Shown here: in pieces, positions 32,408 to 37,658 of the stretch
How the letters are laid out: each line of letters begins with the position of its first letter
Position numbering within the stretch: position 1 is the first letter of the stretch
Assembly (NCBI GenBank): GCA_036674765.1
Contig: JARVKI010000034.1
Coordinates: 124,001 to 188,000, forward strand
DNA length: 64,000 nt
Source of the DNA: Seiridium cupressi
Taxonomy: Eukaryota > Ascomycota > Sordariomycetes > Amphisphaeriales > Sporocadaceae
Reading direction: 5' to 3'
Notes under the pieces: model-generated
The model's input: only the letters and a program-made list of their open reading frames with translations
The model's database searches: none
What the model was told of the DNA's origin: nothing
Position numbers and translations under genes: made by a program

Positions 32408-32463
<56 letters not shown>

Positions 32464-32473
32464 NNNNNNNNNN

Positions 32474-32530
<57 letters not shown>

Positions 32531-33969: not shown

Positions 33970-34878
33970 TCAATGATCCGGCTCACCGGGCGTCTTCGGT
34001 ACACCATGCTCGATCGCCCAGTTCCTGATGTTTTCGAAGTTTCTGCACACGTGTGGCACCGTGTAGTCCGGCCACGGGTCGTCATCGCCGAAAGGATATC
34101 TAAAGGTAAATACGTTGACATCGCCCTGGCACATGACAAACTGTCGTAGCGCATCGATGCAGTGGTCCATGTGGCCCGACAGATCGTGGGGATCGTCCGC
34201 AGTGTCGCCACCCATGGGCTTATAGTGTGACTTGTAGTTGTTCTGCCGCAGCAAATTCAGACAGTGCAGTTGGTGAAATACTTCCACGGCAACGCGATAT
34301 CCGCGTTTGCCCGTGCGTGGATCGGTAATCTCAAGTGCTCCTTTAGGATCTTGGCCCATTTTGATCATTTCTTCACGAGTAATCATGGTGTCGGGAACTG
34401 CGACCACGTCAGTTGTATGTCAAGAATGGCGCAACATCGATTCGACATACTGCCATCCGTGATATATTCCCACATTGCATCTACCTCCGGCCCCTTCCCA
34501 ATAAATGGCCCTTCTGCCACTGGCGGTAAGTCAAAGTGTTGTATCTCATATTTAATCGCATCTAGTGCCGGCGCTGGATATTGCTGTAAGCCCACGGCTC
34601 TGAAAGTTGCAAATGGGATAGAGCTTACAGTACGTGTCTGGCAATCGTTCTGCTCCGGAGTGCTTTGCCGACTTGAGGCAAAATGACAGGGCGAAGAATG
34701 TCATGGATAACGACAGCAACAGTGCATGTGCGAACCAGACCCAGTGCGGGCTTAGCGATTGCAACCTGTCTAGTATTGACTTTCTCTCTGATCTCCATAC
34801 CAACTTCTCATCTACATCACTGCCAGCCGTGAGAGGTTCTTCCTCCTCTAGAGGGATGTGTCGATATGCCTTCGCCAT
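33970..34878 (-). CDS. UstYa-like oxidase (DUF3328)
   Basis: Three exons on the minus strand (34878-34629, 34573-34451, 34397-33970) give 266 codons. Architecture is typical: a short charged cytosolic tail, one membrane helix at about 46-68 (WVWFAHALLLSLSMTFFALSF), then the DUF3328 domain. The family's 'YSPA..AI.Y' start is formed across the first junction (residues about 83-91). Both HxxHC motifs, which define the catalytic family, are intact: HQLHC at 166-170 and HMDHC at 200-204. UstYa-type enzymes oxidise or cyclise ribosomal peptides such as ustiloxin, other dikaritins and cyclochlorotine intermediates, acting in the secretory path. It is transcribed divergently from the repeat precursor gene that begins at 36651, 1.8 kb away, with no gene between. 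The acceptor of exon 2 is chosen because it restores YSPA. Confidence 0.88.
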
Positions 34879-36650: not shown

Positions 36651-37658
36651 ATGCACGCTCCTTCATTCATCCAGCTGGTCGTCTCTGGCCTCCTTGCCAC
36701 CTCGGCTGCCAACGGTTTCCAGGTCACTGGTCCCCGTGACCTTGCCCGTCCTCTTGCAGGAGCTCTTGTAGCCTACGCCGTTCCCGCCTTGGCGGCTCCC
36801 TCCATTGAGGAGAGAGAGCCCCACCACAAGGGAAGAGGAAAGGCTGCCGGTAACAAGAGAAGCATTGAGGAAAGACACCACAAGTAAGTCGATACACTAT
36901 TTACACGCTCAGTCTTGTCTTTTTGCAGAAGCCCTTGATCCAAAGTTCCGTATGGAAAGCCGTCGTGCGACTGATCATCGTCTTGGTCAACGAGATATGG
37001 TGGAGCTCAAATAGTACCAAGTATCATCATGACTACTAACACTATCGCAGGGGCCGTGGTAAGAACGCTGGAGCCAAGCGTGATATCGAAGGAGAGGAGC
37101 ACCTCGAGGCTCGTCATCACAAGTATGTCACAAGTTTCACTACTGCCTATCCACCCTTGGAACGAGCGCCTACCCCATCGGTTCTATTCTATAGAAGCCA
37201 TAAGAGAAACATGCTGTGCCGGGAGAAGTAATGGAACCTATCGACTAATCAATACGTGTTGCAGAGGTCGCGCAGGAAAGAACAACAAGCGAGACACTGC
37301 CGACGAGCTTGAAGCCCGTTCTCCCCACGTAAGTTCAAGATACCCATCACTTCCACAACGAGAGATATACTAACTTTCATCCAAGCACAAGTAAGCCGTT
37401 ACCCTACCTCGGGTTTCCCGATCCTCTCTCATTCAAGAATGCACTTCATGCAGTCCCAGAGGGAAAACTACAATGTGGCCATCCGTCCCCTTGATCCTCT
37501 CGACTATTCGGACTATATCTACTCGAAAGCATAACCGTAACTGACTCAATCGTAACAGGGGCCGTGGCAAGAATGCTGGGGCTAAGCGCGCTGTCGAGGA
37601 AGAAGAGCACCTAGAAGCTCGCCACCACAAGGGCCGCGGAAAGGCCGCCGGCAACTAA
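36651..37658 (+). CDS. Secreted repeat precursor with Kex2 sites (KEP/RiPP-like)
   Basis: Five exons (36651-36883, 37051-37122, 37265-37328, 37386-37390, 37559-37658) give 157 codons. Residues 1-22 look like a signal peptide; a hydrophobic Ala-rich leader runs to about 50. Five copies of a basic unit follow: HHKGRGKAAGNKR (58-70), HHKGRGKNAGAKR (76-88), HHKGRAGKNNKR (100-111), HHKGRGKNAGAKR (123-135) and HHKGRGKAAGN (147-157, the C-terminus). Acidic spacers separate them: SIEER, DIEGEEHLEAR, DTADELEARSP and AVEEEEHLEAR. The four Lys-Arg pairs are Kex2 sites, so processing should free several basic His-rich peptides. This is the arrangement of alpha-factor-like and dikaritin-type precursors. 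It is not a mating pheromone of a kind I know (no Trp or Tyr in the units). Introns 1, 2 and 4 split the same Lys codon after HH. A UstYa-like oxidase lies divergently upstream. What the peptide does is unknown. Confidence 0.85.
37386..37390 (+). other. Putative 5-nt micro-exon (CACAA)
   Basis: Exon 3 of the precursor ends in CCC CAC at 37328, before GTAAGT. The next usable acceptor is CCAAG at 37381-37385, followed at once by CACAA and another donor, GTAAGC. Including these five bases restores HHK and the reading frame of the last repeat. Skipping them would shift the frame and stop after a few codons. Confidence 0.7.

Follow-up and report, generated by a model that had tools for sequence, protein, structure and literature searches.

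The locus at positions 36651..37658 of the 64,000-nucleotide stretch of Seiridium cupressi DNA analyzed here (the window) raises the question of what a short, repetitive and much interrupted gene encodes, whether its product is cut into peptides, and whether the gene next to it acts on them. A preliminary description had proposed a spliced 157-residue protein with five basic units, four of them followed by Lys-Arg, and this was confirmed by a reading frame of five exons and four introns on the forward strand. Its placement of the DNA in the Hypocreales was not borne out, the genome being that of a Seiridium (Amphisphaeriales, Sordariomycetes).

Exon 1 (36651..36883) encodes a hydrophobic N terminus, which hydropathy and inspection by eye mark as a putative signal sequence. 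After it come another hydrophobic segment, rich in Ala, then unit 1 (EP-HHKGRGKAAGN-KR), the spacer SIEER and the first part of unit 2. The remainder of unit 2 (HHKGRGKNAGA-KR), the spacer DIEGEEHLEAR and the start of unit 3 are contributed by exon 2 (37051..37122, 72 nt), and the remainder of unit 3 (HHKGRAGKNN-KR), the spacer DTADELEAR and the residues SPH of unit 4 by exon 3 (37265..37328, 64 nt). A predicted 5-nt microexon, CACAA (37386..37390), completes the HHK of unit 4, restoring both frame and motif, and exon 5 (37559..37658) encodes the rest of unit 4 (HHKGRGKNAGA-KR), the spacer AVEEEEHLEAR, unit 5 (HHKGRGKAAGN) and the stop codon. The protein, all on the forward strand, has five HHKGR units, with KR after units 1 to 4 and unit 5 forming the C terminus; units 1 and 5 share one core, units 2 and 4 another, and unit 3 has its own. 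The net charge of the four spacers ranges from -1 to -4. Tyr, Trp and Phe are all absent from the cores, and the whole protein is devoid of W and C. The exon-1 leader is mostly kept in Pestalotiopsis fici. The second Ala-rich hydrophobic segment, past the putative signal sequence at residues ~34-48 (~36750-36794), hardly changes in P. fici and resembles its counterparts in other relatives; it is perhaps a further released piece.

The four introns are all of the GT-AG type. Introns 1, 2 and 4 split the Lys codon of HHK after AA, while intron 3 separates the two His codons of unit 4, which leaves the 5-nt exon. The string AG-CAYAA-GT, picked post hoc once it had been observed, occurred in 0.16% of 20,000 single-base shuffles of the 230-nt stretch around the microexon. 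Both exon 2 (72 nt) and the combination of exon 3 with the microexon (69 nt) are frame-neutral, such that skipping one would leave four whole units and skipping both would leave three. Retention of intron 1 or intron 4 gives a predicted stop directly after HHK, the codon being created by the donors at 36884 and 37391 (AA|GTAAG); the number of units per precursor could therefore be set by splicing. No DNA tandem array was detected at the locus by TRF, and Rfam and tRNA scans of the 64,000-nt window gave no matches. Recent duplication of exons together with their introns was considered and is unsupported, since the introns are at most weakly alike (among six pairs, each compared with 300 shuffles, the lowest p was 0.043).

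That this is a gene is indicated by the spliced frame, by homologues and by purifying selection between the units. The exon-2 and exon-5 units (24 residues each) differ at 15 of 72 nucleotides, and 12 of these 15 differences are synonymous (pS 0.75, pN 0.05); the six pairs among units 1, 2, 4 and 5, pooled with exclusion of unit 3 on account of its different length, gave pS 0.66 and pN 0.12. The divergence between repeat units is mainly synonymous, which is purifying selection. Of the 1267 candidates in a homologue search, 7 proteins passed E <= 0.1, the entries being 90% clusters with a single name per cluster. Closest were two entries of Seiridium cardinale (E 1e-71 and 1e-70), then P. fici (E 1e-38), with Apiospora marii, two other entries and, weakly, Truncatella angustata (E 0.06) as further matches; the presence of a related gene in close relatives, set beforehand as a test of the preliminary description, was thus established in S. 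cardinale and P. fici. The S. cardinale protein P0002 lacks exon 3 and the microexon. Reading 37267-37326 in a shifted frame gives 20 residues that recur unchanged in its counterpart P0001, where they are preceded by changed intron sequence; this combination indicates that exon 3 is conserved in S. cardinale and that one or both of the published models probably have an error at this point. If there were no gene, or only a decayed one, the model would be a set of chance reading frames joined by eye, an idea fed by its 5-nt exon and by the disagreement of both S. cardinale models with ours and with each other; set against the conserved homologues, the preponderance of synonymous changes among the units and the conservation of exon 3, it is extremely improbable. 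We conclude that the precursor is a real gene, with a structure that is so far one on paper.

A profile search widened the family to at least 27 proteins at E <= 1 among 7997 candidates scored. The matches listed include Cytospora, Diaporthe, Didymella, Lophium, Paraphaeosphaeria, Pseudogymnoascus and Fusarium, with E values between 3e-5 and 4e-3 for the last four; we take these genera to be spread across Sordariomycetes, Dothideomycetes and Leotiomycetes. HH(K/Q) units, 88 in total with S. cardinale entered twice, were present in 27 of 28 proteins (the at least 27 profile matches and the window protein), P0021 having none. In all 88 units of the 27 proteins HH stands right after an Arg or after x-Pro, giving the layout R-(xP)0-2-HH, a count that is descriptive because the units are not independent and the profile itself contains the motif; in shuffled proteins, 20 of 290 units fitted. 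The gap between Arg and HH measured 0 residues in 43 units, 2 in 41 and 4 in 4, and all 45 non-empty gaps consisted of x-Pro (EP 29, DP 7, SP 3, AP 1, KP 1, SPEP 4). At P4, three residues before that Arg, Leu, Ile or Val was found in 82 of the 88 units. A spacing of 0, 2 or 4 with Pro at every even step is, on sequence grounds, what a dipeptidyl aminopeptidase would need. The ends of the units were more varied: the next unit was preceded by [KR]R in 39 of 88 cases, by xR only in 32 and by neither in 17. As judged from these proteins, the constant part of the family unit is its start, the end being less constant. By eye, 9 of the 27 proteins from the profile search terminate or break within a unit, suggesting that annotations of such genes are garbled because introns cut the repeat units.

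The layout of a Kex2-processed repeat protein with units starting in His-His, as proposed in the preliminary description, was supported, and the family comparison extended it by the LxxR plus x-Pro design found in all 88 units. The accessible parts of two papers describe LxxR as an extended motif of Kex2 (PMC8528282) and XA or XP as the preference of Ste13 (PMC6339444), and P_proprotein (Kex2 type) and DPPIV_N domains are present in the genome. In the maturation we propose, a Kex2-type protease in the Golgi would cut after [L/I]xxR ahead of each unit and also after the Lys-Arg behind units 1 to 4, the basic tail would be lost to Kex1, and EP or SP to a dipeptidyl aminopeptidase of the Ste13 type. 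This would yield basic peptides of 10 to 11 residues with a free His-His N terminus, namely, two copies of HHKGRGKAAGN, two of HHKGRGKNAGA and one of HHKGRAGKNN. The calculated [M+H]+ is 1132.608 for both of the first two and 1118.593 for the third, and untrimmed forms would have 1358.704 and 1316.693. Prior to cutting, the charge of the units would be balanced by that of the acidic spacers. Given the LxxR and x-Pro design, the last unit would need no KR. While cleavage, trimming, secretion and splicing of the precursor in vivo are inferred from its sequence, processing into HH peptides is very likely.

Next to the precursor gene lies a UstYa/DUF3328 gene (33970..34878, reverse strand; exons 34878-34629, 34573-34451 and 34397-33970), which encodes a protein of 266 aa matching Pfam UstYa with 184.6 bits (cut-off 25). 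The gene is intact and divergent (head-to-head) with the precursor gene, their start codons being 1.8 kb apart. The protein is identical to Seiridium unicorne P0029 and contains two HxxHC motifs (HQLHC and HMDHC) and, by eye, one hydrophobic segment; both motifs were found in 113 of the 120 best of 195 homologues at E 1e-20. Compared with solved structures, it gave a single match at E 0.98, which we counted as none. A genome-wide PF11807 search gave 42 matches, or 39 loci once merged, the third best being 34006-34398 on the reverse strand within this gene. The fraction of the genome situated no farther from a UstYa match than the precursor amounts to 0.42% at most, the pairing itself having been seen in one genome only. 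At the other UstYa loci of the genome, a repeat precursor was found at 0 of 4 inspected, in a test that depends on a frame free of introns and is likely to overlook the window gene itself.

DUF3328 proteins are presented, in the part of the paper available, as a family of binuclear copper enzymes with suggested roles in hydroxylation, halogenation and macrocyclization, and the authors hypothesize that an accessory protein passes electrons or delivers Cu(I) to them (PMC12435403). The window protein shares with CctR and the other DUF3328 copper enzymes described there the arrangement HxxHC(x)nHxxHC, a single membrane segment (by eye) and, by homology, a lumenal domain, whereas CctR acts on a non-ribosomal cyclic peptide, unlike the RiPP substrate proposed here. 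As a membrane-anchored copper-type oxidase by homology, turned towards the same lumen, the UstYa protein would oxidize the units before secretion, by hydroxylation or cross-linking. We consider modification of the peptide units by this neighbor somewhat more probable than its absence.

The surroundings of the two genes were scanned with Pfam. On one side we found TRAPP, lactate/malate dehydrogenase, L28e, DUF2015 and fatty-acid hydroxylase, and on the other Tup_N/WD40 and RMP1, followed by a P450 and a fungal-rhodopsin gene. By these domain matches the genes around the pair are mostly of a housekeeping type, and the locus thus looks like a two-gene island rather than a large cluster. No tyrosinase, methyltransferase, transporter or peptidase was found in six-frame scans of 22.4-32.0, 32.48-37.28, 38.0-42.5 and 43.9-48.7 kb, with gaps between them at 32.0-32.48, 37.28-38.0 and 42.5-43.9 kb (the WD40 frame lies in the third gap); individual scans covered 30 of the 55 frames of >=150 aa. 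Outside both genes, past the 3' end of the UstYa gene (~32411-32529), about 50 G are followed by ten N (32464-32473) and about 50 C, apparently where the assembly was joined at the poly-G ends of reads.

Related loci were sought in the same genome. By protein search we found a paralogue, L012, on contig C94 (~74058-74732), which is intron-free, has four HHQSK units with Asn-Ala-rich spacers and matches P0024 of S. cupressi; the genome-wide PF11807 search gave no UstYa match on this contig. Two further loci were weak, on C23 (E 0.006) and C5 (E 0.18). In the short frames at these two loci, L010 (C23:257315) and L011 (C5:6379), a signal sequence of similar type precedes IEPR-HHTGNKGKGG and IEPR-QPQGRGGKKGG, respectively; they are possibly single-unit relatives. 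A genome-wide HH pattern search showed, apart from the window's own matches, open frames devoid of repeats, and a search for the alpha-pheromone pattern gave 3 matches, none of them a repeat precursor.

Among known systems, the precursor has the near-identical repeats and Kex2 sites that characterize KEPs (five units, four KR). It comes closest by description to the KEP types G-3 and G-8 (Umemura 2020, PMC7329392), in which a di-histidine motif is accompanied by P and for which linkage to DUF3328 was recorded in 57 of 64 (G-3) and 45 of 49 cases (G-8): shared features are a multi-core, putatively secreted precursor, di-His with Pro and a DUF3328 gene nearby, although the genera given for these types in the accessible part of that survey do not include Seiridium, Pestalotiopsis or Apiospora. 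With the dikaritins (ustiloxins, phomopsins, asperipin-2a), as covered in the available portions of PMC9233826 and PMC12048977, it shares a multi-core precursor, Kex2 sites and an adjoining gene of the UstYa family; it differs from them in having no aromatic core residue, a single UstYa gene and no matched tyrosinase, methyltransferase or peptidase. Dikaritin ring closure, according to the accessible accounts, uses an aromatic core residue, Tyr, or Phe as in victorin, and some known clusters may lack part of the set of tyrosinase, methyltransferase, transporter and peptidase. The likeness to dikaritins drawn in the preliminary description therefore holds as regards the adjoining UstYa gene, which was not mentioned there, and fails on membership because the core lacks an aromatic residue; the tailoring genes were likewise absent from the scans. 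HHKGRGK-like strings were absent from the open-licence full texts searched, where PHHKG, HHQGK and similar strings gave unrelated matches only, as judged from titles and the starts of abstracts, and a His-His core was not found in the accessible parts of accounts of lichen and Trichoderma RiPPs or of a fungal RiPP review.

How, then, is the precursor to be understood? One could see in it a repetitive protein that is secreted and works either intact or in large pieces, being disordered, cell-wall associated or host facing, with basic sites that are merely compositional. The richness in Lys and Arg and the part of the family that has no dibasic site after the unit would fit, but the R-(xP)0-2-HH layout together with the aliphatic P4 would be hard to explain without cutting, and we hold this to be quite unlikely. 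A mating pheromone precursor of the alpha-factor kind would share the layout for processing, and the putative signal sequence, the repeats, the KR sites and the x-Pro dipeptides are all in keeping with that. The alpha-pheromone core is of a Trp/Cys type, and the core found here has neither residue. The genome also contains at least three related loci, which speaks against a pheromone; this reading is very improbable. Thus, of the alpha-factor likeness noted in the preliminary description, the processing stands and the core does not: KR sites and Ste13-type x-Pro dipeptides are shared with fungal alpha-factor precursors as described in the accessible part of PMC6339444, while x-Pro here mostly follows LxxR rather than KR.

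A further choice concerns the UstYa gene, which might be unrelated to a plain Kex2-processed repeat protein releasing linear, unmodified basic peptides that serve as signals, antimicrobials or metal binders. The lack of aromatic residues in the core, the lack of other tailoring genes in the Pfam scans and the C94 paralogue, on whose contig UstYa went unmatched, point in this direction. They are opposed by the chance of about 0.4% of a UstYa match lying so near and by the mostly DUF3328-linked His-His KEP types of the survey (PMC7329392, accessible part), leaving this explanation an appreciable though minority chance. The same proximity and linkage argue for the alternative that a multi-core secreted precursor and UstYa constitute a minimal two-gene RiPP unit with a non-aromatic core; against it count, besides the core and the C94 paralogue, the observation of the pairing in one genome, the dibasic site before the next unit in only 39 of 88 family units and the four other UstYa loci that showed no repeat precursor in the intron-free test. 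On balance, from sequence evidence, we lean slightly towards the two-gene RiPP unit.

An N-terminal His-His, with its amine and His imidazoles, can serve as a copper site and may be compared with GHK copper peptides and histidine braces. It is conceivable, though rather unlikely, that the free His-His-(Lys/Gln)-Gly N terminus, as the constant product of the family, is a designed copper site, the peptides at this locus being either oxidized by the UstYa enzyme into a new non-aromatic RiPP class or carriers of copper to that enzyme or out of the cell, and a copper-related role of the peptides is to the same degree doubtful. The housekeeping-type neighbors and the relatives in several groups weakly suggest a physiological rather than a host-specific role in S. 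cupressi, which we take to be a plant-infecting fungus.

Types G-3 and G-8 were listed in 2020, with neither product nor chemistry given in the accessible part of that survey (PMC7329392). The present locus would provide a two-gene, non-aromatic case that is small enough for expression as a whole. The rule of LxxR cleavage, x-Pro trimming and N-terminal HH predicts exact peptide masses and may itself be searched for in any fungal proteome.
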